Below, one piece after another: positions 1-58,796 of a stretch of DNA of 64,000 nt. The notes below the pieces were generated by a model. That model searched no databases. It was not told the DNA's origin and saw nothing but the letters and a program-made list of their open reading frames with translations. The position numbers and the translations under genes were made by a program. This DNA is from Woeseiaceae bacterium. GTDB taxonomy: Bacteria; Pseudomonadota; Gammaproteobacteria; Steroidobacterales; Woeseiaceae. The stretch lies in the NCBI GenBank assembly GCA_028280615.1, contig JANQLK010000022.1, forward strand, positions 186,001-250,000, given 5' to 3'. The stretch's first letter is position 1, and every line of letters starts with the position of its first letter.

Positions 1-1697
1 GAGTTCGTCTTCTTGTCGAGCTTGCCGTCCAGGTACCACTGCCGGCCCTTGGACGAACCGCCGCGGATGTGCGCGGTCGCGTAGATCACGCCGCGGTCGA
101 CGAGCGACAGGATACTGGTCGAGAACCATGCCTGCATCGTCGCGCCATAGCTGCCGTAGCCGTACAGCAGCAGAGGCGCCGTTCCGTCGACGGGCGTCGA
201 CTTGAGCCGCAGCACCGTAACGGGCACCTCGGCGCCGTCGCCGGCCGTGATGAAGATGCGCTCGACGGCGTACAGGTCCGGGTTGTGGCCGCTCGGCACT
301 TCCTGGGTCTTTCGGAGGACGCGCTGGCGCGTATCGAGATCGAAATCGTAGGTCTGCTCGGGCGTTGACGGAGACTCGTAGGTGAAACGCAGGTTCGACG
401 TGTCGAACTCGTAGCCCGTGTCCACGCCTAAGTTGTATGCCGCCTCGTCGAACTCGATTTCGTAGCTCTCCTCGCGGGCGTAGTCCGAGACGACGATGCG
501 CGGCAGCGCGTTCTCGCGCTCGAGCCGGATGAGACGGTCCTTCAACGGCAGGAAGCTCGTAATGTAGGTGCCGGCCTCGTGCGGCAGCCAGTCCTCCCAG
601 TTCTCCCGGCCGGGCTCGTCGATCGGCGCGCGTACGATTTTGAAGTCGACGGCGTCCTCGGCATTGGTCTGCAGGTAGAAATAGTCGCCGTGGTGCTCCG
701 GGTGGTACAGCTCGTCTTCAAGCCGCGGCGCGATCAGCGTCGGCTCCGTGCCAGGCGCTGCGTCGGACTTGAGGAAGCGGTATTCGCTCGACGTGCCCTT
801 GGCGACGCCTATGAAGATGTACTCGCCGCTCTGCGACTCGTCGACGAACAGGAAGTAGCTGTCGTCGGGCTCCTCGTAGACGAGCAGGTCATCGGCCGGA
901 TCGGTACCGATGACGTGGTGCTTGACGCGCTTCGGCCGCTGGTTGTCGTCGCGCTCGACGTAGTAGAAGGACTTCGCGTCGGCCGCCCAGACGGCCCCGC
1001 CGTCGGTCGACGGGATCGTCTCGGGATACTCGTCGCCCGTTTCGATGTCACGAATCCGGATGTCGTAGTACTCGGAGCCGAGCCGGTCCACGCCGTAGGC
1101 TATCAGCCTGTGGTCCGGGCTGTGGTCGACGTCGGCGATACGGAAGAAGTCCTCGCCCTTGCCTTCGAGGTCGCCGTCGTAGAGCACGGTTTCGTCGCCG
1201 CCGGCGCGCGGGGTCCGGACGTAAACCGGGTACTCGCCGCCCTCGCGATAGCGGATCGAATAGGCATAATCACCATCGACCTCGGGAACCGAGCTGTCGT
1301 CCTCCTTGATTCGCCCGCGCATTTCCTCAAAGAGCTGCTCGCGCAGATCCTCGAGATCCTTCGTCGCCTCGTCGTAGAACGCGTTCTCTGCCTCGAGATG
1401 CGCACGAATATCATCGTCGAGCTCGGACGGATCGCGCAGGACCTCCTGCCAGCCCTCGTCGCGCATCCAGGCGTAGTCATCGACACGCTTCCGGCCGTGC
1501 TGCTCGATTTCGACGGGGCGTTTCTCGGCCGCGGGCGCCTCGGCGGAGAGCGTGGCGAAGGCTTGGGACATCGAATCGCTCATGGTTGCAGCGGTCTCTG
1601 TGGATACATGGTCGTTGGATTTATTGCCACAACCGGCCATTGCAAGCGTGGCGGCGACGATTATCAAGCGGGTGAGGGAAAAGACTACTGATCGCAT
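1..1697 (-). CDS. Oligopeptidase B-like S9A serine peptidase, lipoprotein (3' part outside window)
   Basis: The reverse strand encodes 565 residues from an ATG at 1697 and runs off the left edge. Residues 1-22 form a lipoprotein signal ending in the lipobox LAMAGC, so the enzyme is probably tethered in the periplasm. The rest follows the prolyl oligopeptidase S9A pattern: an N-terminal segment (KRVDDYAWMRD), a long beta-propeller region, then the start of the alpha/beta hydrolase domain with LLLYGYGSYG and HIRGGSSKGRQWY. The catalytic Ser, Asp and His of this family lie further downstream and are not in the window, so activity cannot be judged. Most oligopeptidase B proteins read RGGGEMGR where this one reads RGGSSKGR. 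The family cleaves short peptides after basic residues. Family assignment is firm; substrate is inferred. Confidence 0.88.
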   Translation of the reverse strand, partial: MRSVVFSLTRLIIVAATLAMAGCGNKSNDHVSTETAATMSDSMSQAFATLSAEAPAAEKRPVEIEQHGRKRVDDYAWMRDEGWQEVLRDPSELDDDIRAHLEAENAFYDEATKDLEDLREQLFEEMRGRIKEDDSSVPEVDGDYAYSIRYREGGEYPVYVRTPRAGGDETVLYDGDLEGKGEDFFRIADVDHSPDHRLIAYGVDRLGSEYYDIRIRDIETGDEYPETIPSTDGGAVWAADAKSFYYVERDDNQRPKRVKHHVIGTDPADDLLVYEEPDDSYFLFVDESQSGEYIFIGVAKGTSSEYRFLKSDAAPGTEPTLIAPRLEDELYHPEHHGDYFYLQTNAEDAVDFKIVRAPIDEPGRENWEDWLPHEAGTYITSFLPLKDRLIRLERENALPRIVVSDYAREESYEIEFDEAAYNLGVDTGYEFDTSNLRFTYESPSTPEQTYDFDLDTRQRVLRKTQEVPSGHNPDLYAVERIFITAGDGAEVPVTVLRLKSTPVDGTAPLLLYGYGSYGATMQAWFSTSILSLVDRGVIYATAHIRGGSSKGRQWYLDGKLDKKTN

Positions 1698-1801
1698 CGA
1701 CGGGTCTCCTGAGTCGGGCGAATCGATCGGGACGGTGCTCTCGCTCTTGGATGCCCGGGACAGTCAGACGGTTGCAGCGGTGTTTGCACACGGGGTTCCG
1801 C

Positions 1802-3898
1802 TCAGTAACGCCTTGCGAGCTCCGCCAACCACTCGTCAGCCTGTTCGCGCATGCTCGGGGACAGGTCGAGACGCCTGATCATCTCGCTGGCGCGATCCAG
1901 GTCATTGCCAGCCATGCGGACCACGATCGCGATCTGCGTCTGGCCACGCGTGCGCTCGTTCTCGATCGTCCCGGCCAGCTCGAGCGCCTTCTCGCCACCG
2001 GATTCCCACTGCGTGGCAAGTTGCATTACGGCATAGTCGCGCTCGGGACCGGATGGCTGGCTCCTGGCCCATTGCACGGCCGCGTCGATGTCTTGACTAG
2101 CCCAGCGCTGCGCGACCGCCGATAACCCGCTAGCGCGCATGGATTCGTCGCTTATCCGGTCGAGCCAGCCGGCGGCCTGGCGCGGGTCCGAATTTGCAAG
2201 GTTGCGGACGATAGTCAGGTACGCCGCGTCGCGGGCAGTGGCGTCGGCGATCCGGTCTGCCATTTGTCGCGCCAGCGCGGGGTCGTTTCGGACGATGCCA
2301 TTGATCAACGACACCTGGAGCTCCGCATAGTCGGGTTCGCTCTCGAACTGGCTGATGAACGCCTGTGCTTCTGCTACGGATCTCGACATCGCCAGCTGCC
2401 GCGCGAGCTGGTACCTCGCCTCGCGCTGATAGTTGGCCGGGAGACGCGGGAGATTGCGCATGGCGGCATCGAGGTCCTCCGACATCCCAAGGCCGCCGGT
2501 CCGTTCGAAAATCTTCGCGGCGCGCTCCTCTCCGAGCCCCAGGACCCAGTCGAGCGCGGCATCCGGGTCGCGCTGCGTCCAGCTCGTCGCCACATGGACC
2601 TCTACCTCCTCACGCGTTGCCTCGTCTTCGATCAGGCCGACCAGCCCGGCGACGTTCCCGGAATACTGCTGGCCCAGCGTGCCGAACAGTGCGCTCAGCA
2701 GCCGCTTTTGGTGCATCGGCTCGACCAGGGACTGCGCCTCCACAACCGCGCGCGCCGGATCGTGACGGGCCAGCGAATTGAGCAGTGACAGTTCGATGGA
2801 CTCATGCGGAAACCAGCCGGTGGGCGGGAGCCTGTTTGCTCTTACCCATTCAATGGCGGCGTCGGGGTCCTTACTCGCCATGACGGTCGCGATCGTCGAG
2901 CCGATCGCGAGCCGCGCCTCCGAGCCGGTTGCGCCTTCGAATAGCGCGATGGCCTCGTCCATGTCGTTGGCTGCGAGCGTCGTCATCGCGTTATTGAACT
3001 CGGAGCTCCGGCTCGGATTACCGCCTGCGCCCACCACACGCTCAATGACGCCCAGCGGGTCCCTCCGAGCGACAGCCGCCTCCACGATAATGCGGGCCCG
3101 GTTTCGGTGGCTTGCGTCCTCGATGCGCTCGATGTTGGCAAGCGCCGCCTCTGGGTTCACGATCGAAAGGTAGTTGGCGAGTCTCAGCGTCAGGTCAAGC
3201 TTGTCGAAACTCGTCGACAGCCCGTTCAGGTAGTCGATGGCCGCGGGCACGGATCGATCCGCCAGTCGCTGGACGTATCGGCTCCGGGTCTCGAGGTCGG
3301 GCGGAATCGCGAGCTCCTCCTCGATTCGCCTGGTCGTCGCGTTGCCATCGTCGCCGAATGCCCGATAGAGGCTCTGCGCGGCCGCGTGGCGCAAGCGATC
3401 ACTGGGCTGCGTGGCCGCGGCAAACAGCGCGTCGGCAAGATCGTTGCGGCCCCAGGCTGCCCAGATCGAGTCCTCGATATTGCGCTCGCCCTGAAAGTAC
3501 TCGGTGCGCGCCAGTGCAAGCGCCGACTGCGCGTCGAGCTCGGTCAGCCGAGTAAACAGGCCGTCAAGGATATCGGCTCGCTGCGCGGGCTCCGCGATAC
3601 GGTTCGCCTCGAATATCAGCGCCTGGGTATCGGTGGCGTCGGATCTTCCAGCGAGCGCGTACAGCGCCTCGAGCCGGTTGAATCGCCCCGGCAGCGCGAG
3701 CACGCCGGCGATCGTCGACAGCGCCCGGTAGCCCTCCGACCGGTGCTGCTCGGCCGCCTCGGTCGTTACGCTCTGTGTAGCGACGAGATCGCGAACGACC
3801 TCCTCTGCGGCAGGTGGTTCGTCCGCCCGCATGACGAACCACGTCGCGGCTATTCCCGTGAGCAGTCCCGCAAACAGGACGGTGACGAGCCTTGGCAT
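1802..3898 (-). CDS. Membrane-anchored alpha-solenoid repeat protein of unknown function
   Basis: The 698-residue protein has one N-terminal hydrophobic segment (residues about 5-22) and then a long helical region. It carries many degenerate repeats of roughly 30-35 residues with a recurring D-P-x-x-A-x-x-W core, for example DPDAAIEWV, DPDAALDWV, DPRQAAGWL and DIDAAVQWA. This is the pattern of a TPR/HEAT-like superhelix, so it probably binds other proteins on the periplasmic side. No catalytic motif is visible. It lies 7 bases upstream of the left-pointing peptidase region and 7 bases downstream of the SstT gene on the same strand, but these genes have no obvious shared role. Function unknown. 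Confidence 0.75.
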   Translation of the reverse strand: MPRLVTVLFAGLLTGIAATWFVMRADEPPAAEEVVRDLVATQSVTTEAAEQHRSEGYRALSTIAGVLALPGRFNRLEALYALAGRSDATDTQALIFEANRIAEPAQRADILDGLFTRLTELDAQSALALARTEYFQGERNIEDSIWAAWGRNDLADALFAAATQPSDRLRHAAAQSLYRAFGDDGNATTRRIEEELAIPPDLETRSRYVQRLADRSVPAAIDYLNGLSTSFDKLDLTLRLANYLSIVNPEAALANIERIEDASHRNRARIIVEAAVARRDPLGVIERVVGAGGNPSRSSEFNNAMTTLAANDMDEAIALFEGATGSEARLAIGSTIATVMASKDPDAAIEWVRANRLPPTGWFPHESIELSLLNSLARHDPARAVVEAQSLVEPMHQKRLLSALFGTLGQQYSGNVAGLVGLIEDEATREEVEVHVATSWTQRDPDAALDWVLGLGEERAAKIFERTGGLGMSEDLDAAMRNLPRLPANYQREARYQLARQLAMSRSVAEAQAFISQFESEPDYAELQVSLINGIVRNDPALARQMADRIADATARDAAYLTIVRNLANSDPRQAAGWLDRISDESMRASGLSAVAQRWASQDIDAAVQWARSQPSGPERDYAVMQLATQWESGGEKALELAGTIENERTRGQTQIAIVVRMAGNDLDRASEMIRRLDLSPSMREQADEWLAELARRY

Positions 3899-3905
3899 GG
3901 GCGTT

Positions 3906-5111
3906 TCATCCTTCTTTCCCGGCGACGGCGGCCGTGAACACGACGTCCGTCGAGCTGTTGAGCGCGGTCTCGGCAGAGTCCTGGAGGATGCTGATGACGA
4001 ATCCCACGGCCACTACCTGCATCGCGACATCGTTGGATATCCCGAACAGACTACAGGCCAGCGGGATCAGCAGTAAAGATCCGCCCGCTACGCCGGACGC
4101 ACCGCAGGCCGACAGTGCCGCGACGACCGACAGTAGCAGCGCCGTCAGCAGGTCGACCTGTATACCGAGGGTATGGGTCGCGGACAGGGTCAGCGTCGTG
4201 ATCGTGATCGCGGCGCCGCCCATGTTGATCGTCGCGCCGAGTGGGATTGACACGGCATAGGTGTCGCGTTCGAGGTCGAGCCGCTCGCAGAGCGCCATGT
4301 TGACGGGGATATTGGCCGCGGAGCTGCGCGTGAAGAACGCCGTCACGCCGCTCTCGCGGAGCGCGGCGAGCACGACCGGGTAGGGATTCCTGCGGGTCTT
4401 CAGGAACACGAGCAGCGGATTCACGAGCAGCGCCATGATCAGCATCGCCGAGAGCAGCACCGTGAGGATTCGCGCGTAGCCGCCAAGCACGGACAGGCCC
4501 GACTCGGCCAGGTTGCCCGCGACCAGGCCGAAGATGCCGATCGGCGCCAGTCGGATGACGATGCGGACGATGTGGGTGATGGCGTCGGCAACGTCGGCGA
4601 GCATCTGTCGCGTCGACTCGGCGGCATGATGCAGGAAGATGCCGAGCAGCACGCCCCAGGCGAGTATGCCGATGAAGTTGCCCTCGATGACGGCGCTGAA
4701 CGGGTTGTCGACAATTCGGAACAGAAGGCCGCGGAGCACCTCGGTGATGCCCTGCGGCGCGCTGGCGTCGACATCGGTGACCTGCAATGCGAGCGTCGTC
4801 GGAAACAGCGTGCTGAGCGTAACGGCGAGCAACGCGGCGGCGATCGTGCCGGCGAGGTACAGGCCGATGATCGGCCGGAGCTGCGAGGTGTGGCTCTTGC
4901 GGCGATTTGCGATCGCCGAGGCAACGAGCACGAGCACGAGTATCGGGGCGACGGCCTTGAGCGCCTGTACGAACAGCGTGCCGAACAGCATCGCGCCCCT
5001 GGCGGCCGGCGGCGACACGAACGAGAGGATGACGCCGAGCACGATACCGACGAGTATCTGCAGCACGAGGCTGCCCTGGGTAATACGCTCGAGGAGCGTT
5101 CGGTTTTGCAT
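3906..5111 (-). CDS. sstT: Sodium-dependent serine/threonine transporter SstT
   Basis: The 401-residue membrane protein belongs to the dicarboxylate/amino acid:cation symporter (glutamate transporter) fold. The N-terminus ([18 protein letters not shown]) matches SstT. The C-terminal half holds the re-entrant loop region [14 protein letters not shown], followed by [16 protein letters not shown], equivalent to the NMxG substrate and sodium site, and the [19 protein letters not shown] hairpin. Eight or more hydrophobic segments are evident. It would import serine and threonine with Na+ across the inner membrane. The length agrees with the family (about 400). It sits 15 bases downstream of the PqqB-like gene on the same strand, probably coincidentally. 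Confidence 0.92.
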
Positions 5112-14061: not shown

Positions 14062-14586
14062 ATGTCCACGACGGTTATCCGTAGTCCGAGCAGACTACAC
14101 TTGAGTGCCATATGCCGGTCCACCTGTCTGTCGGCAGCGCTCACGCTCTGTTTCGCCGCCTGTGCCGCCGCCGACCCGCGAGGCGGTTCGCCGGCCATGA
14201 CGGCAACCGGGGAGCCTGCCCCCCTAACGACGTTCGATGCGGTCGCCATCCAGGGATTCCGGACGGACACACTGAAGCCCGAGACGTCCCGGGCCATCGA
14301 CGAGATCATCGTCTTTGGTATCCGCAAGCCGCGCGTCGAGGATCCGAAGCCCGATCTGCTGATCGACCCGCTGCGCGCTCGCGTACTCAAAGAGATTCGT
14401 GAGCTCAAGCTTCTCGACGGCGAATTCGAATGGCGCGCCGAGACATCCGATCTCGACGTCGAACCGCCAAGGCTGCGCGTGGGCTACGACCCGCGAAGCG
14501 ATGCGCGGCTGCCCGAACCGAGCCCGCAGGTGCGGCTACCTATCGATCGGGTTAGACCGGCAACCTTGTTGAGCGTCGACTTTTAA
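14062..14586 (+). CDS. Small exported protein of unknown function
   Basis: The 174-residue protein has an N-terminal hydrophobic region ending LCFAACAAADPRGG (about 22-38), consistent with a signal peptide or lipoprotein signal. The mature part is polar and Pro/Arg-rich with IDEIIVFGIRKPRVEDPKPDLLIDPLRARVLKEI and no recognisable domain. A good ribosome-binding site (GGAGGG) precedes the ATG. A rho-independent terminator lies 39 bases after the stop, supporting a real monocistronic gene. A stretch EIIVFG resembles N-terminal tags seen on some TonB-receptor-associated exported proteins, but that is only a resemblance. Function unknown. Confidence 0.65.
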   Translation: MSTTVIRSPSRLHLSAICRSTCLSAALTLCFAACAAADPRGGSPAMTATGEPAPLTTFDAVAIQGFRTDTLKPETSRAIDEIIVFGIRKPRVEDPKPDLLIDPLRARVLKEIRELKLLDGEFEWRAETSDLDVEPPRLRVGYDPRSDARLPEPSPQVRLPIDRVRPATLLSVDF

Positions 14587-40145: not shown

Positions 40146-41045
40146 ATGAACTGGCAGGCCGTTACGTTCGACTGGAACCAGGCGCGGGCTTTTCTCGCGA
40201 CTGCCGAAGAGGGCTCTCTTTCGGCCGCAGCCCGCGCCCTCGGCCTCACGCAACCGACATTGAGCAGACAGGTGGCCGGGCTCGAGACCGACCTTGGCGT
40301 CACGCTCTTCGAGCGCGGGCACCGCTCGATGGACCTCACCGAGTCGGGCATGGCGTTGCTCGAGCACGTACGCGCGATGGGCGATGCAGCCACGCGCGTG
40401 TCGCTCGCGGCCACGGGCCGCTCAGAGCTTATCGACGGACACGTGAGCGTGACCGCCACGGAAGGGTTCGCGATGCAACACCTGCCGGCGATAGTCGAGC
40501 GCGTGCGCGATCGCGCACCGGGCATCGAACTTGAGATCATCCCGGCCAACGAATCGCTGGATCTGATTCGCCGTGAGGCCGACATTGCGATCCGCCACGC
40601 GAGACCCGAGCATGGTGATCTCATCGCCAAACGCATCGGCGGAACCACGGGTCACTTTTACGGCGCCCGGCAGTATCTCGATCAGGTGGGTAGGCCGAAG
40701 GCGCCCGTCGATCTCGCGAATTACGACTTCATTGGCTTTGAGAGTCCCGTTCGAATGCTGGAATTGTTCAACAACATCGGCATTCCCGTGACGCGAGATC
40801 ATTTCAAGGTATACAGCGCAAGCGGCATCGTGATTCTGGCACTGATGGAACGAGGCCTCGGCCTTAGCGTCATGATGAAAGACGTCGCCGAGGCGCGGCC
40901 AGCGCTCGAGCAGGTGTTGCCGTCGCTACCGCCGTTCGACGTGCCCATCTGGCTCGTCACGCACCGCGAGCTCCACACGAGCCGGCGAATCCGGCTCGTC
41001 TATGACACCATCGCGGAGTACGTGGGGGGGCTCGGGCTCGCGTAG
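40146..41045 (+). CDS. LysR-family transcriptional regulator
   Basis: The 299-residue protein has the N-terminal winged helix (DWNQARAFLATAEEGSLSAAARALGLTQPTLSRQVAGLETDLGVTLFERGHRSMDLTESG) and a C-terminal effector-binding domain with LPAIVERVRDRAPGIELEIIPANESLDLIRREADIAIRHARP. It is divergent from the methyltransferase gene, the usual LysR arrangement. Effector unknown. The start lies directly after a TATGCATA palindrome. Its stop is about 100 bases before the left end of the foreign-looking island. Confidence 0.9.
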   Translation: MNWQAVTFDWNQARAFLATAEEGSLSAAARALGLTQPTLSRQVAGLETDLGVTLFERGHRSMDLTESGMALLEHVRAMGDAATRVSLAATGRSELIDGHVSVTATEGFAMQHLPAIVERVRDRAPGIELEIIPANESLDLIRREADIAIRHARPEHGDLIAKRIGGTTGHFYGARQYLDQVGRPKAPVDLANYDFIGFESPVRMLELFNNIGIPVTRDHFKVYSASGIVILALMERGLGLSVMMKDVAEARPALEQVLPSLPPFDVPIWLVTHRELHTSRRIRLVYDTIAEYVGGLGLA

Positions 41046-41149
41046 GCCAAGACCCTGTTCTCTGTGCGCCGCGACAGAGTTCGGAACTCTATATTCATTC
41101 GTTCAAGATCTTATTGTGACGAAGCTCGAATCTACCTCGGTTGAAGGCG

Positions 41150-41569
41150 CTAGCTTGCCAATACCGACAATCCCGTCATTCGTCCCGCCGCCTGTTTTGC
41201 CTTGTCGATGACGGACCGGCCGATGTTCTTGAGCCGGTCGTTTCGTGCCTCAAGTTCAGCTTCCACCTGTTCTCGCAGTTGCTGGGAATTGACGTTCAGG
41301 TTCGCCGTCGCCCGTTCGACTGCGGCAATTACGCGTTCGATTTCCTCGTGCTGCGCAGCGTCCAGTGCATCGATTTCTGACTGCAACTCTCCCAACTCCG
41401 ACTCGAAGTCCTGCCTGATCTTTTTGACCTGATCATCGGCTTTCTGTTTGAGTTCCCCGACGCGGGTTTCAATCCAGGTCGTCATCTCGTCGGTTGCCTG
41501 GCTGACGACCAGTGCGGCGTCAGGCCCGATTACGTCGTTGGGATCCGGCGGCGGTATACGAATAGCCAT
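41150..41569 (-). CDS. Coiled-coil protein of the glmS-adjacent island
   Basis: The 139-residue protein is nearly all charged heptads: ATDEMTTWIETRVGELKQKADDQVKKIRQDFESELGELQSEIDALDAAQHEEIERVIAAVERATANLNVNSQQLREQVEAELEARNDRL (about 25-115). No signal peptide or membrane segment is present, so it is probably cytosolic. Its ATG shares one base with the upstream stop (TAATG), so it is translationally coupled to the lipoprotein gene. I do not recognise the family. It is the last gene of a three-gene unit. Confidence 0.65.
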   Translation of the reverse strand: MAIRIPPPDPNDVIGPDAALVVSQATDEMTTWIETRVGELKQKADDQVKKIRQDFESELGELQSEIDALDAAQHEEIERVIAAVERATANLNVNSQQLREQVEAELEARNDRLKNIGRSVIDKAKQAAGRMTGLSVLAS

Positions 41570-42600
41570 TAGTCGTCCTCTTCAGTGAGTTCCGGGAGGG
41601 TAGATGCCTTGACCTCCTCCGCTTCTCTCGCGGCCTCGCTTCCGAGCCGCTCAAGCAGGCTTTGCAACTGCGCGGCGGAGCGATCCTCGAAATCCGCCAT
41701 TCGCTGCGTGGCTTGGTCACCGAACATCTGAACTTGCTGATTCAAAAACTGGCCGAATATCGTATCGGCCCCAGCAACACTGTTGATCGTCGCGGAGATC
41801 GACTCTACGGCGCCCGCTATGAGCAGCTGGGAGGCACGAGGCCGGCTCAGGTAGGCATGCACCGCGCCAAGGTTATTGGCATGGTGCGAATAGTTGGAGT
41901 CAACCCGCTGCTTGTACGCGGCAAGGGTCGAGATCAGCGTATCGTGAGGCGAAGTTCCGGCGCCGCCGGTCGGCGCACTGGCGCTGGTGGTTTGCGGAAA
42001 CTGCGCAACTGCATCGCGCAGTTGCCGGCCAGTGTCCCCCAGATCCGCTTCGAATTTCTCCCGGACCTTGGCCAGCTCGGACTCCAGCAACGGATACAGG
42101 ACTTCTACCTTGGCGTTTGCCCCGGTCGCCGCAATATAGTAGAGATTCACCAATGCCCGTAGCGCCATTTCGCGTGAATCGAAGTCCCCGGGATTGGACT
42201 GGAATTCCGACTTGAACCGGACGCTGAGCGCTTCCTGCATGTCGATCGCAGCGTTGACACGTGTGTCGAATTTGTCGGTCAAAGCCTGCTCGAATTCTTG
42301 CCGCAGCTCCGTGACATCGTCTTCGAACCTCACGCGAGCCTGGGATTCGAGGGCATCCACCAACACCAGGAGCCGCGATCGATTGGTCTCTATGAGTCGC
42401 TCGCGTTCGCCTGCGATTCGATTCGCATCCCGGCGAACGTAGTCGGCGAACTGATCCACGATTTCCTGGTGGGCGGTCGACAAGGTAGCAACGTCTGCCT
42501 GTGACTGACTGGACAACTGAAGCACGGAGGCTGGAGTGCCGCATGCGGCGACTGTGGCGCAGACGAACAGACCCGCGACGAGGGATGGGGTTCGGTTCAC
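41569..42600 (-). CDS. Helical lipoprotein of the glmS-adjacent island
   Basis: The 343-residue protein has a lipoprotein signal (VNRTPSLVAGLFVCATVAACGT, lipobox VAAC, C20). The mature protein is predicted helical with long charged stretches (IVDQFADYVRRDANRIAGERERLIETNRSRLLVLVDALESQARVRFEDDVTELRQEFEQALTDKF). A hinge region (FPQTTSASAPTGGAGTSPH) and a C-terminal region QMFGDQATQRMADFEDRSAAQLQSLLERLGSEAAREAEEVKA follow. The GTG start at 42600 overlaps the upstream stop in GTGA. It resembles an envelope-spanning or adaptor coiled-coil protein. I do not recognise a family. Confidence 0.68.
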   Translation of the reverse strand: MNRTPSLVAGLFVCATVAACGTPASVLQLSSQSQADVATLSTAHQEIVDQFADYVRRDANRIAGERERLIETNRSRLLVLVDALESQARVRFEDDVTELRQEFEQALTDKFDTRVNAAIDMQEALSVRFKSEFQSNPGDFDSREMALRALVNLYYIAATGANAKVEVLYPLLESELAKVREKFEADLGDTGRQLRDAVAQFPQTTSASAPTGGAGTSPHDTLISTLAAYKQRVDSNYSHHANNLGAVHAYLSRPRASQLLIAGAVESISATINSVAGADTIFGQFLNQQVQMFGDQATQRMADFEDRSAAQLQSLLERLGSEAAREAEEVKASTLPELTEEDD

Positions 42601-43760
42601 GACGCGGCCTCCTTGTCCTGCACGATTCGTCTGACCACGGCCTCCGCAACAATCTTGGCGTCCGTGACAAGCTCGTCGAAATTCGCCGGCGAGCGCGAAT
42701 TCCACATGACGCTCCGCAGATTCTCCATGCGCCGCTTGGCCACTGCCTCGGGGCCTTCATCGATGCTCTTTCTCGCCGCACCAAGAATCCGTTCGGAAAG
42801 TCTGTCAACGAGCATCGCGGTTTTTCGACTGTTGTAGCCGAAAAGGAAACCGAGGACGGGAAGAGACCAGGAAACGGTCTCGTAGCTGCCAACGTCAATC
42901 CAGCCAATCAGGATGGCCAACACGACGACAACGCTTACCATCGGCCCGTAGACCATCTTTGTGTAGCCAACGTACTTCTCAATCGGTCGAAACGTACCCT
43001 CGGTCAAGAACTTGGCCGAGTTGATCAGCAAGTTGGTCAGGACGCCTCCGAGGGACCAGAAGATGACTTCCGCAATGGCAAGGTTGGTTGTAATCCAAAA
43101 GACACTGGCTAGACGGGGCGCCGCCAGGCCTTCATAGGCTTGCACCTGTTCGCGCTTTAGCTGCCGAAGTCGAATGAGCGACGATAGTATCGATTCCGGT
43201 ACCGCCTCCAGCTTGTCCAGATTCCTCGGCGAGGCTTCGCGGATTATCTGCCGCCAAATATCCAAGGCATCTTCATATTTGCCGGCGTCGATCGCATCGG
43301 TCAGTGCGTCCAGGATTGGTAGTTTGTCGTAAGTCTTGGAACCGACAATCCGTCGAAGGACACCCAGATTACGAATCAACGTCGCCTGTGACGTCTGCAA
43401 TAGAGTGTCAATCTCGTCGTTACGCCGATACACCTTCTCCGTGAAGATTTCGATGATTTCGCGACCCATATAGAAAATCGCGGAGCTCTCGTCTTTGATC
43501 AGCAGAATTCCTGTGCCATGCGGATTCACGGGTCGGTCGCAGGGATCCGTCTGCCGGTCGCACCCGGCGCTGTCCGAATCGTCGGAGCCGAGGAAGGCGA
43601 AGACGTCTACTTTGTTCGGCAGAAGGCTCGACGGCTTGAGCCACAGGTGCGAAATGACGTACACGACCGCGAGGGCGATCAGCCCGAGCGTCGTATTGAC
43701 GACGAACTGCTTCCCGCGCAGCTTGTGGTCGTACTTCGCCGCCTTCCTGAATATGATCAC
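42597..43760 (-). CDS. Multi-pass membrane protein of the glmS-adjacent island
   Basis: The protein of about 387 residues has an N-terminal membrane segment (NTTLGLIALAVVYVISHLWL), a long soluble loop with an acidic Cys-containing part (DDSDSAGCDRQTDPCDRPV) and a helical region, then three or four membrane segments near the C-terminus (ASVFWITTNLAIAEVIFWSLGGVLTNLLI, YGPMVSVVVVLAILIGWIDVG, LPVLGFLFGYNS). The cytosolic end carries LVDRLSERILGAARKSIDEGPEAVAKRRMENLRS. I prefer the GTG at 43760 because it has an AAGGCGGG site; a TTG at 43799 is also open. No family recognised. It is the first gene of the overlapping three-gene unit. Confidence 0.65.
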   Translation of the reverse strand: MIIFRKAAKYDHKLRGKQFVVNTTLGLIALAVVYVISHLWLKPSSLLPNKVDVFAFLGSDDSDSAGCDRQTDPCDRPVNPHGTGILLIKDESSAIFYMGREIIEIFTEKVYRRNDEIDTLLQTSQATLIRNLGVLRRIVGSKTYDKLPILDALTDAIDAGKYEDALDIWRQIIREASPRNLDKLEAVPESILSSLIRLRQLKREQVQAYEGLAAPRLASVFWITTNLAIAEVIFWSLGGVLTNLLINSAKFLTEGTFRPIEKYVGYTKMVYGPMVSVVVVLAILIGWIDVGSYETVSWSLPVLGFLFGYNSRKTAMLVDRLSERILGAARKSIDEGPEAVAKRRMENLRSVMWNSRSPANFDELVTDAKIVAEAVVRRIVQDKEAAS

Positions 43761-43961
43761 GAAAACCCGCCTTGCAGGGACCGCGAGAGCGCTGACCAAT
43801 CACGTCTGGTTAATGGCGCTCAACCGGAGGCCGTTAGCTGCGCCGCATCGCGTATTGTTAGTTCTTTTGACCAAATGTAGCAGGCCGAACGCTGTTTGGC
43901 CATGTCGGAAGACCGCGGCGCCTGCTTTTCCGCCAGGCATGGGAATGACGAGTCGCCCAGA

Positions 43962-44867
43962 TCAGGCGTCGATTCCACTCCAGGAGTGGTTGGTGACCTT
44001 CAGCGCTGCCAGTTTTCGCTCGGCGTAGAACGCGCAAATCTGCGCCCAGGTTGGCGCAGTCGGGTTGCGCCACCATTCGGGGGGCGGCCCGTTTGCCACA
44101 TGGTCCCGAAGGTTGCCCAGACTGCGATATCCGACGCCGTCGAGGCCGAAGCCGCGATTGGACTCCAAGGTCAACACACGATCCGTCGCCGGGTCATGGT
44201 CGACAATAAGGAAGGTGTGACCGCCACCACTCGTCCTCCAGCCCTGCACGACACTCCAGGGCGGCGGTGATGCGTTAGGATCGGCAACGGTATTGGCCAT
44301 TCCTGCCTCGACGACGCAATGCACCGGAGAGAACAGGTCGTCGCCGATGATCATCATTTGTCGATGACGTGCCGAAGTCCAAACGAATCGATCAGGATCG
44401 TGATCCTGCCACGCCCGCACCACCAGCGCTTCGACGAACGTGCAACAATTATTCTTTGCCGGAGGGGCTTGCGGCAAGTTACAGCCTTCAATCGCGTACG
44501 GATATCTGGCCCCTGTCTTCGTATATCGGAAGTCTCGGAAGGCTGGCAAACGCGCTATCAGTAGTTGTTCCGAAATCGCATCCGTGTCGCCGGTCGAATC
44601 CGTTCTGGCCGTCGGCTCGCGTTCGGTCTCGGTAAACCTCCCGTACACCTGGGTACCCGATCTTGTGCATATCCAGGTGTCGTCACCGTCCAGGCCGTAT
44701 ATGGCGATACGCGCATAGTCGTCGTCGTTCGTATCGCCCTGGTTCGGCAGCCGTTCGAGAACAGCGTAAGTGCCCGCCGGCACTCGGCCTTCCGTATCAG
44801 ATCGGGTGTCTGGCTCCACGAACCCCGGGAGACTCAATGAAAGAGTTACAAGTAATTCCCTGGCCAT
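43962..44867 (-). CDS. Papain-like (NlpC/P60- or CHAP-like) protein, SH3-like N-terminus
   Basis: The 301-residue protein starts at the ATG at 44867. The N-terminal part (VPAGTYAVLERLPNQGDTNDDDYARIAIYGLDGDDTWICTR, about 29-70) resembles a bacterial SH3 module. The C-terminal part has NNCCTFVEALVVRAW (C141/C142), GGGHTFLIVDHD (H217) and VLTLESNRGFGLDGVGYR (E235 or N237). The order Cys-His-acid/Asn is that of NlpC/P60 and CHAP cysteine peptidases or amidases. If so, it may cut peptidoglycan or another amide bond. There is no convincing signal peptide. It precedes the membrane/lipoprotein/coiled-coil unit by about 200 bases on the same strand. Family assignment is tentative. Confidence 0.6.
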   Translation of the reverse strand: MARELLVTLSLSLPGFVEPDTRSDTEGRVPAGTYAVLERLPNQGDTNDDDYARIAIYGLDGDDTWICTRSGTQVYGRFTETEREPTARTDSTGDTDAISEQLLIARLPAFRDFRYTKTGARYPYAIEGCNLPQAPPAKNNCCTFVEALVVRAWQDHDPDRFVWTSARHRQMMIIGDDLFSPVHCVVEAGMANTVADPNASPPPWSVVQGWRTSGGGHTFLIVDHDPATDRVLTLESNRGFGLDGVGYRSLGNLRDHVANGPPPEWWRNPTAPTWAQICAFYAERKLAALKVTNHSWSGIDA

Positions 44868-45286
44868 GCGGAGACCCCGAAGCTGCCGGCGCCATCGCCT
44901 GATTGCTCGGAGTATAGGCCATCTGCGGTGTTTTCCTCCCGCGCTATCCGTTTGTTGACACGTGGAAGATGTCAATCGGACGCGAATCGCCCGGAACGAC
45001 TTGGCAGACCATATCGTCAGCGAGTTCTCGATTTCTCCGTCGCTGATTCACGACGTTGCCGCTCAAATGATCCTTAACAACTAACTCTCGAACAAAATCG
45101 CGCATAAGTCCCTGAAGTACAGTTGTCGGGCTGACCGGCGTCTGCGAGGTAACTCCCGAACGGACCACAGGAATAATCTGACAAAGCATGAAGCATTGGC
45201 TGCCGGAAGTGGTCGGTCGCGAGGACTTCGATTGGCGAGTCTACGCTGGCGACGTGGCCAGATATATGGCCAGTGCTTTGCAGGTG
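44868..45286. other. Island stretch with only a doubtful small ORF
   Basis: No convincing gene is visible here. A reverse-strand ORF of 81 codons (44944-45189) starts with ATG and codes for a charged peptide (GLMRDFVRELVVKDHLSG), but it has no ribosome-binding site, no homologue I recognise and no support from neighbours. The stretch may hold the promoter of the papain-like gene at 44867. The sequence is less GC-rich than the flanking core genome. Confidence 0.4.
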
Positions 45287-46294
45287 TCAATGTAGGCCCC
45301 ATACGTTGTCATTTGGGTCGCGAGGATACTCGGAGACGCCACAGCATCTGCATCTCCAAGAGTCGTGACGACTTGCGAACACTGATCTTCGAGTCATGCA
45401 TGCGTCACACCCTCGGATCCAAGTCTCAGTTTCCGCGTACCGATAGTCGCCGTCTCCGACCTCGAGAATTTTGCTTGTGCCGGGACCGATACCCAATCTT
45501 GCAATTCCCTTCTTGGAAAAGCGCAACTCAGTCGGTTCTTCTGACTCGCGAACGCCCCATGCGAAGAGAACCCTCTTTCCGCCACGCCACCACGACGCGG
45601 TCTTCGGGCTGAATCTGCCCAACTCTGACTCGCGGGGATATGATGAGCCACTCGCTTCGCAGACTCGAGCTAGAAGCTCTTGGTCAACAACTGCCAGTGC
45701 TGAAAGGTCATGCTCTCCAAACTGTCTTCCGTACCCTTCTATCAAGATACGTTTTGTCAAATCATCGAGTCCTGCACCGTGAGCCAGTATTGATAGTTCT
45801 TTCGTATAGCGCCGCCATTCACTGTCCTTGTCGAGCCGCAAGACAACATACAACGTGTCCAGCGCGTTAATAGGAACATCGTCGATACCGTATTGAACAA
45901 CGGCGACATCTCGGGCGGTTCTTGCAAGATTTTTCGCTGATTCGACGCCAGTCAAGTGGCGAATCGCCTCGGTGTCTCCCTGAGCAGCAAGTAGCGCCAA
46001 CGAACGTGCACAATCTGACAATTGAGTATAGGTATCATCACCCTTCTTAAGCACGTTTCCTTGGTGATCAACAAAGCCGACACTTCTCGCCAACGCATTC
46101 ATCTCGCTTTCGTGAGGCAAGCTGCGCTTCTGTCCAACCCACCACGATGCAAATGTTGCCTGAAATCGGTCGTACTCTTTTGGGCACGTCTTCTCGATGT
46201 AGTCGCGGACTCCTAAATAGAGCGGAGAAAGAGAGCCATTGTCGAGGTTTGAAGCCAAATCGAATCGCAAGCCACCAGAAGGCAGAGAGTTCAC
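45287..46294 (-). CDS. Protein with duplicated SWW motif and C-terminal zinc ribbon
   Basis: The 335-residue protein has the motif ASWWVGQKRSLP in its N-terminal part (about 49-60) and SWWRGGKRVLF in its C-terminal part (about 235-245), so the protein may be built of two diverged copies. The C-terminus has CDAC (C296, C299) and CRCC (C315, C318), spacing CX2C-X15-CX2C, a zinc-ribbon pattern. The middle holds helices with ARSLALLAAQGDTEAIRHLTGVESAKNLARTAR. It starts with GTG at 46294, directly after a stop codon and without a clear ribosome-binding site. A nucleic-acid- or protein-binding role is suggested by the ribbon. No family recognised. Confidence 0.6.
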   Translation of the reverse strand: MNSLPSGGLRFDLASNLDNGSLSPLYLGVRDYIEKTCPKEYDRFQATFASWWVGQKRSLPHESEMNALARSVGFVDHQGNVLKKGDDTYTQLSDCARSLALLAAQGDTEAIRHLTGVESAKNLARTARDVAVVQYGIDDVPINALDTLYVVLRLDKDSEWRRYTKELSILAHGAGLDDLTKRILIEGYGRQFGEHDLSALAVVDQELLARVCEASGSSYPRESELGRFSPKTASWWRGGKRVLFAWGVRESEEPTELRFSKKGIARLGIGPGTSKILEVGDGDYRYAETETWIRGCDACMTRRSVFASRHDSWRCRCCGVSEYPRDPNDNVWGLH

Positions 46295-46830
46295 TCAATA
46301 GCGTAGCTGACAATCTTAGCAGGCGACAAGGAGTCCGGACAGCGATCAAGTCCGCGGTCCTGTGGAGCAGTATCTGGGACTAGGCCCAAGACCCTCGCTG
46401 GTTGCTGGATAGCCTACCAGTTGTTGTTGGGAACGGTTTGATAGAACAAACCACGATTTGGGAGGAAGTGGTTATTGAATCGGCTTCTTTCCAAGAGGTT
46501 CTCGACTACTGCATTGCCAACAGTTCTAACAAAGCAATCGAGATGGCGACTCGTGTCGATGCTTCCGTAACGTTGGGTGTTTATAGCAAGACCGAAATGG
46601 AAGGGCTGAGTCAACGATCTGAAGACTCAATATGTCTGATGATTTACAGGAACTCGGCCGATCGTTGGAGAATTATCGCACGGTAAGAAAATGGAGGAGA
46701 ACTGGCGACATCTAACTCTCGAAGCCAGAGCTGCGAGCAATGTTCGGTCCCGACACAGAAAAGATGTACCTGGCGACCTGATTGGGTCAGGAGTTGCCGT
46801 CGGCTGCTAGAATGAGTGTCGGAGGTCGGT
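46295..46830. other. Island gap with one weak rightward ORF
   Basis: Apart from the weak ORF at 46402-46686 I see nothing here. The segment is distinctly AT-richer than the core genome: for example the 60 bases at 46501-46560 contain 29 G or C, against 46 of 60 at 58441-58500 in atpA. The promoter for the leftward gene at 46294 and the rightward gene at 46831 must lie in this region, but I could not identify convincing -35/-10 pairs. Confidence 0.45.
46402..46686 (+). CDS. Possible small protein (weak ORF)
   Basis: The ORF is 94 codons with a TTG start and ends in a TAA. The sequence is protein-like (EEVVIESASFQEVLDYCIANSSNKAIEMATRVDAS, then CLMIYRNSADRWRII) with no membrane segment. A GTG at about codon 22, after GGGAGGAA, would be a better start. 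It has no recognised relatives and lies in low-GC DNA, so it is only a possibility. Confidence 0.35.
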   Translation: MLDSLPVVVGNGLIEQTTIWEEVVIESASFQEVLDYCIANSSNKAIEMATRVDASVTLGVYSKTEMEGLSQRSEDSICLMIYRNSADRWRIIAR

Positions 46831-47658
46831 ATGAATATTGACACCAATAGCGGCGCCACTCGTTTCTCGTCTATGGATGAGGACCAACTTGTCCTGTCAC
46901 TCCAAGACCCCAATCTGTCGGATGAGGAAAGGAGTGAAGTTAACCGGACGCTACTGGAAAAGAAGGTCTCCTCGAAGGCCAAACCTAGCGAACTAGCACG
47001 AAGCGCAACAAACACCCGTTTTAGCCAATCGTCTCAACGTGGACCGTCGCCAACGGTTTGGTCAGGAGCTGCTGCGCTCTTTTTCGCTGCAACGACTGTC
47101 TTTCTGGTCGCAATCCTGGAACCTGGCATATCGATGTCTCGAGTGGCCGTGATCGGGGCTGTACCATTTGTGGCGATAGGAATTGTCGCGAGGTTCTTAG
47201 GGGTCGTTGCTGTTCCGGCATTTTTTGTCGGGATTCTCGGGATTCTCTACTTCAAGGGTCAGTTGAGCGCCTCTCCGATAGTCTATTTGAGCATTGTCGT
47301 CGGGCTTGCCACAGCCGGCATAGTTGCTGACGGTTGGATGCGATCAGTAACCCGTTCACCGAAACAAGGAAATGGCATTGCGCTAGTTCTGTCGATCGTT
47401 CTATATATAGGATTGGTCGCGAGTGTTTCCATAAAGGCCAAAGAAGACCCTGCCAATTTTCGTCTTGGCGTTGTGTCTGCGAGAACAACGTCGGAGCCGA
47501 AGCCGCAAAGAGTTCGCTTTATTCACAGGGGTCAATTTATGGAGGGAACGGTGTTGAGAGTCGACGGAAACAAGGTTTGGATAGTTTTGGAAGGCGGAAC
47601 GACAACTTGGCACTACAAACGCAATGTCACGTTTCTTGACGAAGAAGGACAAGATTGA
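46831..47658 (+). CDS. Multi-pass membrane protein with C-terminal soluble domain
   Basis: The 275-residue protein starts at the ATG at 46831, which follows a strong GGAGGT site; an upstream GTG is less likely. The N-terminal 75 residues are polar (DEDQLVLSLQDPNLSDEERSEVNRTLLEKK), then five hydrophobic segments between about 80 and 195 (SGAAALFFAATTVFLVAILEPG, VAVIGAVPFVAIGIVARFL, VVAVPAFFVGILGILYF, PIVYLSIVVGLATAGIVADG, IALVLSIVLYIGLVASVSI). The C-terminal part (about 200-275) is soluble, with RVRFIHRGQFMEGTVLRVDGNKVWIVLEGG, reminiscent of a small beta barrel. No family recognised. It reads away from the SWW protein and has a different strand from its neighbours. Confidence 0.6.
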   Translation: MNIDTNSGATRFSSMDEDQLVLSLQDPNLSDEERSEVNRTLLEKKVSSKAKPSELARSATNTRFSQSSQRGPSPTVWSGAAALFFAATTVFLVAILEPGISMSRVAVIGAVPFVAIGIVARFLGVVAVPAFFVGILGILYFKGQLSASPIVYLSIVVGLATAGIVADGWMRSVTRSPKQGNGIALVLSIVLYIGLVASVSIKAKEDPANFRLGVVSARTTSEPKPQRVRFIHRGQFMEGTVLRVDGNKVWIVLEGGTTTWHYKRNVTFLDEEGQD

Positions 47659-47914
47659 CGTCTGTGATCCCATTACTCTGTAATGACAGAAGATGGGGAC
47701 CCTTGATCCAACGTCCACTCTTGACCCGATCTCGCCACTGTTTCGGACAACCGACATGACAAGGGTTGATCACAATTTGTACTATCAGATTTGTCCCAGA
47801 TTGGCGCCGCAGCCAATTGCCAATTGGCGAACAGCCCGCCCCCGAAACTCTGGAGACTGTCTTTTTCGATTCCTATTTGCTCTATCCTCTCAAGAATAAG
47901 AGCCTCCGGGTAAC
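47659..47914. other. Non-coding stretch at the glmS end of the island
   Basis: I found no gene here. It is rich in short A/T runs and contains a local inverted repeat CAATTGCCAATTG-like region (47813-47828, CCAATTGCCAATTGG). There is no clear terminator for the gene ending at 47658. Confidence 0.4.
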
Positions 47915-48256
47915 CTAGGTTGGTTCAACTGCAATTGTGGGATTGTCTGACCGGTGATCGATGTATTTGAATTCCTTCGCGGCATCTTTAAGCCGAGATT
48001 CATAACTGCGACCGTCTTTTATCGGCGTGACCGACGCCTTTCTCCGTTTTCGCGATGCCGAATCCTGCCCTTCGCTAGTCGCCTTTTCCTCCGGCGTCAG
48101 CATCGACTCTGCTGCCTGACTCAGAATCTCACGCTCAGATCGCTTCGCTGCCGCGGACCCCAACCGCGCCAGCTGATTGTCCTCGAGAGGCCATGGGCAC
48201 CAAAGGTCCGGACTTGATCGGCTCGCTTGCTTGTTTGTCTTGAACTGCTGATACAT
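47915..48256 (-). CDS. Doubtful small ORF directly after glmS
   Basis: The ORF is 113 codons, starts with ATG 21 bases after the glmS stop and lies on the same strand. The product is polar and basic with AAKRSEREILSQAAESMLTPEEKATSEGQDSASRKRRKAS and no recognisable domain or ribosome-binding site. It may be read-through filler of the island edge rather than a gene. Its start coincides with the position where Tn7-type elements insert. Confidence 0.35.
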   Translation of the reverse strand: MYQQFKTNKQASRSSPDLWCPWPLEDNQLARLGSAAAKRSEREILSQAAESMLTPEEKATSEGQDSASRKRRKASVTPIKDGRSYESRLKDAAKEFKYIDHRSDNPTIAVEPT

Positions 48257-48313
48257 GTCAAGCGGTTGCTTGCGCGCCTACTCCACCGTCACCGACTTCG
48301 CCAGGTTTCTCGG
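48253..48313 (-). other. Inferred attTn7-type attachment site at the glmS 3' end
   Basis: The last codons of glmS ([17 protein letters not shown]) are those conserved for recognition by Tn7 TnsD. Tn7-like elements insert about 25 bases beyond the stop codon, near 48253. Directly beyond lies a run of low-GC genes not found in the atp-glm core. No Tn7 end repeats or tns genes are visible. This is inference from established Tn7 biology. Confidence 0.4.
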
Positions 48314-50110
48314 CTGGTCAACATCGGTGCCTTTCAGTACGGCGACGTGATAGGACAGTAGCTGCAGCGGCACGGTGTAGACGATCGGCGCGATCAGCCG
48401 GTCGGCGTGCGGCATCGGGATCACCTTGATGCCTTCCTCGTCTTCCAGGCCGGTCTCGCGATCGGCGAACACGTACAGCTGCCCGCCGCGGGCGCGCACT
48501 ACCTGCATGTTGGACTTGAGCTTGTCCAAGAGCTCGTTGTTGGGCGCGACCACGATGACCGGCATGTCCTCATCGATCAGGGCCAGCGGTCCGTGCTTCA
48601 GCTCGCCCGCGGCATAGGCCTCGGCGTGGATATAGGAAATCTCCTTTAGCTTCAGCGCGCCCTCCATCGCTATCGGCCACATCGGTCCGCGACCGAGGAA
48701 CAGCGTGTGCTCTTTCTCCGCGAAATCCTCGGCTACGTGTTTCAGCCCGTCATTCATCGCCAGCACTTCCTCGACGGCGGCTGCCGTATGCATGACGTGC
48801 GGCACCAGCTCGGCTTCCATTTCCGCGCTCATGCCCCGCTGGCGCGCCAGTATCAGCGTAACGATCAGCATGGACAGGAGCTGCGTCGTGAAGGCCTTGG
48901 TGCTGGCAACGCCGATCTCGGGACCGGCCTGAGTCATCATGACGAGATCGGATTCGCGCACCATCGAGCTGTGCGCGCTGTTGCAGACGGTCAGCGAGCC
49001 GAGATAGCCCGCCTGCTTCGCCATGCGCAGCGCTTCCAGCGTGTCCGCGGTTTCACCGGACTGCGACAGCGTCAGGAACAGCGTGTTCGGCGGCACGGCT
49101 ACTTGGCGGTAGCGGTATTCGCTCGCGATTTCGACCTGGGCCATTACCCCTGACAGCGCTTCAAGCCAGTACTTCGCCACGCAGCCGGCATGGTAGCTGG
49201 TACCGCAGGCGACGATGTGAATGTTCTCCACATTGGCCAGTATCTCGCTCGCCTGCGGCCCCAGCGATTCCGCGACCACCTTGCCGCTCTCGATGCGTCC
49301 GTACAGCGTGTTGGCGAGGGCGCTCGGCTGCTCGAAGATTTCCTTCAGCATGAAGTGCCGGTACGGGCCCTTCTCGGCCGACTCGGTCGTCCACTGGGTT
49401 TCGTGGATCTCGCGTTCGACGTCTTTGCCGTCCGCATCGAGTACACGAACTTCCTGGCGGGTAATCTCCGCCAGGTCGCCCTGCTCGAGATAGATGAAGC
49501 GCTGGGTTACGGGCAACAGGGCCGGGACGCCGCTGGCGACGAAGTTCTCGCCGATACCGAGCCCGATAACCAGCGGGCTCGCGACCCGGCTGACCACGAT
49601 GCGATCGGGATCCTCTGCGTCGTAGACGAGCAGTGCGAACGCGCCGGTGAACCGTTTGACCGATTTCCCGACCGCGGTGACGAGGTCGTCGCCCTCTTTC
49701 AGGTAGTCGTGCACGAGATGGGCAGCCACCTCGGTATCCGTCTCGGATTCGAACGTGTAGCCCTTCGCCTCCAGTTCGTCCTTGATCTCCTGGTAGTTCT
49801 CGATGATGCCGTTGTGGATGACGGCGACGCGGTCACCGGAGAGATGCGGGTGCGCGTTGGCCTCGGTAACGCCGCCGTGCGTTGCCCAGCGCGTATGTGC
49901 AACGCCGAGCTGACCCGCAAGCGGGCGCTCGTCGAGCTTCGTCGCAAGCTCCGCAACCTTGCCCACGGTCCGGCACAGGCCGATCGTCCGGTCCCGCTGC
50001 AATACGGCGACCCCCGCGGAGTCGTAGCCGCGGTACTCGAGCCTTCGCAAACCCTCCACGAGGATGGGCAGGACGTTTCGCTCGCCGATGACACCTACGA
50101 TTCCACACAC
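48278..50110 (-). CDS. glmS: Glutamine--fructose-6-phosphate aminotransferase GlmS
   Basis: The 610-residue enzyme begins [33 protein letters not shown] with the N-terminal nucleophile Cys of the glutaminase domain, [13 protein letters not shown] and a [14 protein letters not shown] segment. The C-terminal half has two SIS domains ([66 protein letters not shown]). It makes glucosamine-6-phosphate from fructose-6-phosphate and glutamine, the first step to UDP-GlcNAc. No ribozyme of the Firmicutes type is visible upstream. It follows glmU with about 107 bases between. Confidence 0.97.

Positions 50111-57254: not shown

Positions 57255-58796
<1,542 letters not shown>

Follow-up and report, generated by a model that had tools for sequence, protein, structure and literature searches.

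A putative Tn7-type site for cargo-only transposons beside glmS in a Woeseiaceae genus, and a possible old stack in one genome

MITEs and mini-Tn7 constructs possess ends without a transposase and can be moved in trans. Tn7 itself is described in PMC2918618 as inserting about 20 bp past the stop codon of glmS with a 5-bp duplication. PMC8649781 mentions Tn7-like elements that lie next to or inside one another and have multiple ends; from what its text says of its starting point, that survey appears to have set out from tnsB-bearing elements, so it would not collect cargo-only ones.

In our study, the DNA past glmS was analysed in a Woeseiaceae bacterium (the whole stretch of 64,000 nucleotides is called the window) and in its relatives. 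The glmS gene of the window lies at 48278..50110 on the reverse strand, and the target signal presumably resides in its 3' end. The relatives were found to resemble Tn7 and Tn7-like elements at attTn7 in the position about 20 nt past the glmS stop codon, the repeated end sites, an apparent short duplication and the presence of cargo, but their complete elements are 1.7-4.3 kb long and without tns genes, core machinery was detected in one of 73 genus genomes only, and no clear end is left in the window. Like the nested elements mentioned in PMC8649781, the relatives show multiple ends in a row at a single site, whereas the three complete elements found here contain no transposase. Unlike MITEs and mini-Tn7 constructs, the relatives' elements are natural, contain complete cargo genes or operons and occupy one fixed site.

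The glmS flank in relatives

Sixty genus genomes with a glmS C-terminus were collected, the window's own included. A search that also took in other families gave full-length glmS matches in 49 of 60 genomes, of which one was the window's own and the rest had 47-82% identity. The flanks of G006, G025, G034 and G193 were left out, as the contig apparently ends at or near the stop codon or the match is partial. The 58 flanks read came from the window, from 55 further genus genomes and from two genomes of other families (G038 and G055, the only ones read among other-family genomes with glmS). By length, 54 flanks entered the tandem-repeat test and 57 the clustering.

The glmU- and atp-like ORFs on the other side of glmS (named by eye) recurred there in 16-19 of 19 relatives; the first-pass annotation had called the atp-glmU-glmS order core. 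Past glmS, flanks of 1.4-15 kb from 20 relatives contained no ORF of the block at 41150-48277 (the island). The integration hot spot that the annotation had proposed from the window is thus strongly supported by the relatives, which show a fixed end position, three end families, three complete elements and several stacks.

Transposon-end-like sequences in three clusters (families A, B and C) were found in 23 of 57 flanks. They start about 19-25 nt past the glmS stop codon, many with tandem sites of about 14 nt. Tandem 14-mers with at least 12/14 identities, 20-150 nt past the stop codon, were present in 16/54 flanks against 25/860 control windows; at 13/14 or more the counts were 12/54 and 4/860. 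Flank pairs scoring at least 34 numbered 49 of 1596, compared with 3 of 3612 control pairs, and 40 of the 43 edges of the cluster graph start at 10-41 nt, 24 of those at 19-26. Across 411 kb of flanks there were 40 PWM matches scoring at least 16 (26 from the sequences behind the models and 14 from outside that set), against 0 in 286 kb upstream of glmS, and a PWM end was located at an offset of 30 or less in 20/58 flanks. The model-building members scored 27-46, and those of families A-C 16.5-44.3 when left out of their own model.

Three complete elements of 1.7-4.3 kb were found to contain inverted ends with a 4-5 bp repeat outside both. Two belong to family A (L096, 22-1922; L121, 22-1762) and one to family B (L099, about 19-4365). 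Without the B element and one repeat, L099 would have an A element after 22 nt, and stacks of elements were present in L096, L099, L121 and L040. The presumed target duplication of the three elements is 4 bp, or 5 bp counting the terminal T. An automated search for ends with a duplication performed no better than its control, and the duplications therefore rest on ends defined beforehand. The ends of the relatives' elements begin with TGAACC or TGGTT, unlike those of Tn7, which begin with TGTGG.

The cargo of the three elements comprised a PLP decarboxylase, CrtO and MAPEG family proteins, an AraC-type regulator, two reductases and a hydrolase, and no transposase family was found among their eight ORFs. 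As regards integrons, an integrase-like ORF was recognised by eye only, in L043. Searches for Tn7-type core genes (tnsABC, tniQ/tnsD) gave none in 72 of the 73 genus genomes; the remaining one (G315) contains TniQ and TnsB away from glmS. The Tn7-like element of G315 was rejected as the mobiliser, its region being devoid of tandem ends and of families A-C. These families were also absent from 19 short TniQ loci of the order.

Composition and genes of the island

The GC content of the island (41150-48277) was 0.554, against 0.644 on its left side and 0.641 on its right side. The base counts of the first-pass annotation were exact (29 G/C of 60 at 46501-46560; 46 of 60 at 58441-58500), and its low-GC run of unrecognised genes past the glmS stop codon was borne out over about 7 kb, where no listed Pfam or NCBIfam match of the ORFs tested attains its cut-off and no PADLOC match is credible. 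The codon use of the two genes nearest glmS departed strongly from the window background (z 22.6 and 16.5), whereas the next four genes were mildly atypical (z 3.0-4.9); the LysR gene at 40146 showed no departure (z 0.1). The z-scores show a composite of two unlike blocks, namely a strongly foreign 3.2-kb part adjoining glmS and, further out, a block of four genes that is mildly atypical. The left edge at 41150 coincides with the end of a gene and is unproven as an island border. Direct and inverted repeats in the island were nowhere clearly above chance, a near-repeat at 41043 and 46381 was set aside as chance by a rough estimate, and tRNA and Rfam searches gave no hits.

The glmS stop codon is followed by a spacer of 22 nt (48256..48277, reverse strand), at the end of which begins an ORF of 113 aa (47915..48256, reverse; codon z 3.3) that is of doubtful reality and without credible family match. 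An ORF of 280 aa (46816..47658, forward; GC3 0.509, z 16.5), by eye probably a membrane protein, has strongly foreign codons and no credible match in the Pfam, NCBIfam, PADLOC and PHROG searches. A protein of 335 aa (45287..46294, reverse; GC3 0.521, z 22.6) contains two CxxC pairs near its C-terminus, seen by eye, and had no credible match in family or solved-structure searches.

The four-gene block is encoded on the reverse strand throughout. Its first ORF, of 337 aa (43962..44975; likely ATG at 44867), matches the uncharacterised PHROG phrog_26504 (E 2.3e-80). An alignment with two distant homologues shows invariant Cys and His residues, and the protein may possibly be a papain/NlpC-like enzyme; its structure model was unusable (pLDDT 42; best solved-structure match E 0.84). 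It is followed by an ORF of 400 aa (42597..43799), by eye probably a membrane protein and without credible family match, a coiled-coil lipoprotein (41569..42600) with a lipobox-like ACG noted by eye, whose start overlaps the stop of the preceding gene, and a coiled-coil protein of 139 aa (41150..41569) overlapping the lipoprotein gene. As a weak guess, the cargo could be an envelope operon with a papain-like enzyme. Defence cargo, which the first-pass annotation had considered for such sites, found no backing: PADLOC matches of the island ORFs were weak, mostly coiled-coil (best 8.8e-5), and 148 ORFs of relatives gave four families at E <= 1e-15, with one member each.

Solved-structure searches gave nothing credible. 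The genome searches with single proteins covered the 400-aa and phrog_26504 proteins. Among 398 genomes of the phylum, phrog_26504 was found in the window's own genome only; tblastn of this protein in phages and plasmids found none, and four scans of viral contigs likewise gave none. The 400-aa protein was found, in 396 genomes of the order, in its own genome and in one marginal match (5.8e-4) that we do not believe. The concatenated island proteins gave a weak negative against 396 genomes, as few candidates per genome are scored for a long query.

End-like sites and the origin of the island

We hold with about even confidence that the glmS flank is a Tn7-type site for cargo-only transposons and that the island is most likely an old stack of them. 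Such a stack would have at most two degraded ends left. Its units would be the foreign part from glmS to 45068, the four-gene block from 45068 to about 41127, and a further unit from 41126.

The two sites that suggest decayed transposon ends coincide with composition steps. The first (45068..45097, forward), oriented as the glmS-distal end of the glmS-adjoining unit, is the best family-A match in the window (13.2). That score was reached once in 286 kb of upstream DNA and four times in 155 kb of low-GC flank DNA, and by 13/1000 local shuffles. Some of the four low-GC matches may be real ends, and an A-like site was also seen at 14570 in the window. The second (41097..41126, reverse), between the four-gene block and LysR and with the orientation expected of the glmS-proximal end of another unit, is the best family-C match in the window (10.4). 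No such score occurred in the same upstream and low-GC flank DNA, and local shuffles attained it in 54/1000. Its local alignment to L106 scored 37; with all 27 ends tried, the best alignment was attained by 2/60 shuffles and 1/36 natural chunks. Permuted models placed their top match inside the two gaps in 15 and 24/1000 and attained the two scores in 58 and 183/1000. The best family-B match falls outside the island.

The glmS-proximal position of the window is without an array (tandem score 10/14, background level), and no repeat of a presumed duplication was found beside an inverted end. Tandem-site and core-gene searches agreed with the first-pass annotation that neither Tn7 ends nor tns genes stand out in the window. 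Of the ends and duplication that it had suggested looking for, no duplication was found and the ends are two decayed candidates near chance level; these fit its remark that the insertion may be old or made by another element, and are suggestive only.

An ordinary synteny break is a serious alternative, to which we give somewhat less than even weight. Here glmS would simply end a conserved operon, and the 7 kb would be lineage-specific genes brought by homologous or illegitimate recombination without a transposon. The window's glmS has no significant end, no duplication is present, the two internal candidates are within chance reach, and the ORFs further left are not beside glmS in relatives either (flanks of up to 15 kb could not show far ones). 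The shuffle test and the low-GC control lowered our confidence in the stack and raised it in this alternative, against which stand the use of the same site as an insertion point in many relatives and the coincidence of the two end-like sites with composition steps.

An integrase-type genomic island, in which a tyrosine recombinase element would have integrated at the 3' end of glmS and left a second gene end behind, is disfavoured and very improbable. In one relative of another family (L048, G055), a decayed duplicate of the glmS 3' end (43/51 positions) lies at a distance of 8 kb, but no such copy exists in the 14 kb past the window's glmS (best 29/51), and no integrase was found by Pfam among the island ORFs. 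The constant place of the relatives' motifs past the stop codon would suit regulatory or terminator sequences 3' of glmS, but it is hardly probable that they are such sequences, as the same position is used by three unrelated families, elements are bounded 1.7-4.3 kb further on by inverted copies with duplications, a member of one family sits between glmS and a member of another, and none occurs in 286 kb of upstream DNA.

Gene gain at glmS

In the cargo-only transposon reading, small elements with Tn7-like ends would insert successively at the glmS 3' flank. The newer elements would land next to glmS, and the older ones would be pushed outward and decay. A TnsB-like transposase and a targeting protein that recognises glmS, both provided in trans from another source, may have moved them. 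We propose tentatively, at a little under even confidence, that the genus gains genes at glmS through stacked Tn7-like mini-elements that carry only cargo, have ends of at least three families and depend for movement in trans on machinery not retained by its chromosomes. The stack would then be a time-ordered record of gene gain with the newest element at glmS, and the window its worn-out form.

Surveys of Tn7-like transposons that start from the transposase would miss elements without one. If the reading is true, the source of the transposase becomes a testable question, and cargo-only elements offer a way to delimit unrecognised cargo genes like the window's. If such elements stack at glmS throughout the genus, they would be a way of gaining genes that has been overlooked and in which the sequence of arrivals can be read.

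Composition and neighbourhood of the glmS-adjacent island

The window was part of contig C3, in a genome of 4.57 Mb and 58 contigs. A low-GC island of unrecognised genes at an attTn7-type site, beyond the glmS stop codon (glmS, 48278..50110, minus strand), had been proposed in the first-pass annotation. Its G/C base counts were exact on recount, and the region 41150-48277 was found to contain 55.4% GC against 64% in the flanks. No listed Pfam or NCBIfam match reached the cut-off among the island ORFs tested, in keeping with the proposal; PADLOC gave weak matches to these ORFs, mostly coiled-coil, and a 337-aa protein strongly matched phrog_26504, a PHROG family of unknown function. In codon use, the 335-aa and 280-aa genes adjoining glmS were strongly foreign (z 22.6 and 16.5, respectively; GC3 0.51-0.52), whereas the LysR gene at 40146 was ordinary (z 0.1). 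The four-gene block at 41150-44975, encoding the 337-aa protein, a membrane protein, a lipoprotein and a coiled-coil protein, was mildly atypical (z 3.0-4.9). The island is thus split into two blocks by codon use. The gene ends of the last three genes of the four-gene block overlap, and these genes probably form one transcript.

The glmS search of 60 genomes, including the window's own, gave full-length matches in 49, partial matches in 5 and weak paralogue-like matches alone in 6. Full-length glmS in one genus fell into two groups, with about 76-81% and 58-62% identity to that of the window; the genes of G011, G013, G017, G019, G027 and G031 were involved in this pattern, which points to either a deep split or a replacement of the gene. 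The downstream flanks of 20 relatives were read for lengths of 1.4-15 kb (about 15 kb in ten of the relatives), and none of the ORFs of 41150-48277 recurred there beyond glmS. Among all 42 window ORFs on the island side, one (ABC-ATPase-like) was matched in 1 of 20 loci, in a comparison that could show only ORFs within 15 kb of glmS; for the LysR, L037 gave a match of the LysR family and L036 a weak one. On the other side of glmS, a glmU-like ORF was matched in all 19 loci compared, and four atp-like ones were matched in 16-18 of these loci (names by eye). A transporter block (BCCT-like by eye) was common to five of the 20 relatives, at 2.2, 8.9, 9.6, 9.8 and 14.7 kb from glmS, with only its edge visible in L049; therefore, DNA of very different length lies between fixed neighbours. 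The block was 53 kb from glmS on the same contig in G010, and no match to it was found in G000.

Contigs stopped less than 500 nt from glmS in 8 of 58 loci (L098, L103, L104, L105, L107, L113, L122 and L123), which would fit a site that varies, or is repeated, within the populations sampled. About 8.0 kb beyond glmS, L048 (G055) contained the gene's 3' end again in decayed form (43/51 positions), the kind of trace expected from an integrase-type island or from a duplication. An ORF resembling a truncated integron integrase (by eye) was present about 0.8-1.5 kb after glmS in L043 (G016), and in L045 (G014) glmS was followed by a series of small ORFs, most of them on one strand, which might be cassettes.

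Transposon-end families and complete elements in relatives

According to PMC2918618, insertion of Tn7 takes place about 20 bp downstream of glmS and produces a 5-bp duplication. In our study, 58 flanks read outward from the glmS stop differed in the first ~20 nt, followed by recurring sequences starting about 19-25 nt past the stop. These transposon-end-like sequences were family A (TGAACCTCAGGACKTAACTCCGTCACT), family B (TGGTTTCTGGTAATTAAAACTGTCGGA) and family C (TGGTTCTCCGTAATAAAGTTACGAATG and relatives), and in many of them the inner site was repeated in tandem, in two or three copies. Tandem 14-mers of at least 12/14 were present in 16/54 flanks against 25/860 control windows, and those of at least 13/14 in 12/54 against 4/860. 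All-against-all alignment clustered 23 of 57 flanks (sizes 8, 8 and 7); three further pairs mostly had the appearance of inherited flanks. Models (PWMs) built from the families gave 40 matches of at least 16 in 411 kb of flanks, 26 of them used in building the models and 14 not, and none in 286 kb upstream of glmS.

Complete elements were found in three loci. The family A element of L096 (22-1922 after the stop) had GTTG(T) outside both ends and carried one PLP decarboxylase; beyond it lay more end-like DNA, with a second A-type distal end at ~3891 and a B end directly after. The family A element of L121 (22-1762) had TTTG(T) outside both ends, carried CrtO and MAPEG family proteins, and was directly followed by an A-like end. 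The family B element of L099 (about 19-4365), with ACAG(T) outside both ends, carried an AraC-type regulator, a short-chain dehydrogenase, an aldo/keto reductase and a hydrolase, and an A element lay directly behind it. Removing B and one repeat from L099 leaves 22 nt and an A end, an arrangement found singly elsewhere. The duplication was 4 bp in all three, or 5 bp counting the terminal T. Stacked ends were also present in L040 (B at 23, C at 662). An automated search for an end plus duplication gave no more than its control; therefore, the three cases depend on ends that had been recognised independently at glmS. Benler et al. (PMC8649781) delimit Tn7-like elements via arrays of TnsB sites and mention adjacent insertions with multiple ends; target selectors are treated in PMC10293859. 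No title on cargo-only Tn7-like stacks at glmS was found in a search that left most subscription literature outside, so novelty is unproven.

End-like sites within the window

No array of sites adjoined glmS in the window (tandem score 10/14, equal to background), and no target duplication was found beside glmS there. The best family-A match of the 64 kb was at 45068, between the strongly foreign and mild blocks, and the best family-C match at 41097-41126, between the mild block and the LysR; the best family-B match was outside the island. The orientation of the former fits a distal end, and that of the latter the start of a further unit. A weaker family-A-like site, the window's second best (score 9.7), lay far from glmS at 14570 (+).

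In favour of 45068, family-A scores of at least 13.2 occurred once in the 286 kb of upstream DNA and never in the window's other 57 kb; in favour of 41097-41126, family-C scores of at least 10.39 were absent from both and from 155 kb of low-GC flank DNA. Against this, the family-A threshold was reached four times in that low-GC DNA, and local shuffles attained the A score in 13/1000 and the C score in 54/1000 (in a smaller set, n=60, the maximum equalled each score). Permuted models attained the window scores in 58/1000 and 183/1000, and their top match fell inside the two gaps in 15/1000 and 24/1000, the gaps having been picked after the matches were seen. With 27 ends tried, the best alignment was attained by 2/60 shuffles and 1/36 natural chunks; for single ends the score was attained in 0/300 (L106) and 5/300 (L113). 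On these counts, and with the gaps picked afterwards, the island is called a probable but unproven decayed stack of elements, a reading to which we give even odds.

Transposition machinery and cargo

No transposase was found by Pfam among the eight ORFs of the three complete elements. TniQ (PF06527) was present in 18 of 381 genomes across the order and in one of 73 in the genus, G315, where it adjoined tnsA-, tnsB- and tnsC-like ORFs (G315:C4:190000-209900, L092; named by eye except where TniQ and Mu-transpos_C were matched); its glmS lay on a different contig. G315 was also the only match in the genus for PF09299 and for its own TnsB as query; PF09299 scored this TnsB at just 4.7e-5, so the search could overlook transposases that are divergent. 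Family A-C ends were absent from the G315 region and from 19 short TniQ loci.

The only relatives of the phrog_26504 protein that were found came from two MAGs, one of Marinoscillum and one gammaproteobacterial, where the neighbouring genes were different. In L059:307-5834 a homologue was preceded by genes for a 593-aa protein and for a lipoprotein, and was followed by macro-domain-like and DUF2235-like ORFs (by eye). Because Cys and His residues are conserved in these proteins, a papain-like enzyme is possible; the predicted structure had too low a confidence (pLDDT 42) to bear on this. The relatives' cargo was sampled from the first 20 flanks, which gave 148 ORFs of 110 aa or longer. PADLOC (E <= 1e-15) gave four families with one member each, and Pfam (E <= 1e-8) gave 96 varied families, the 25 listed including TonB receptors, enzymes and regulators. 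The glmS site, suggested earlier as a place for defence islands, is therefore not chiefly a store of known defence genes.
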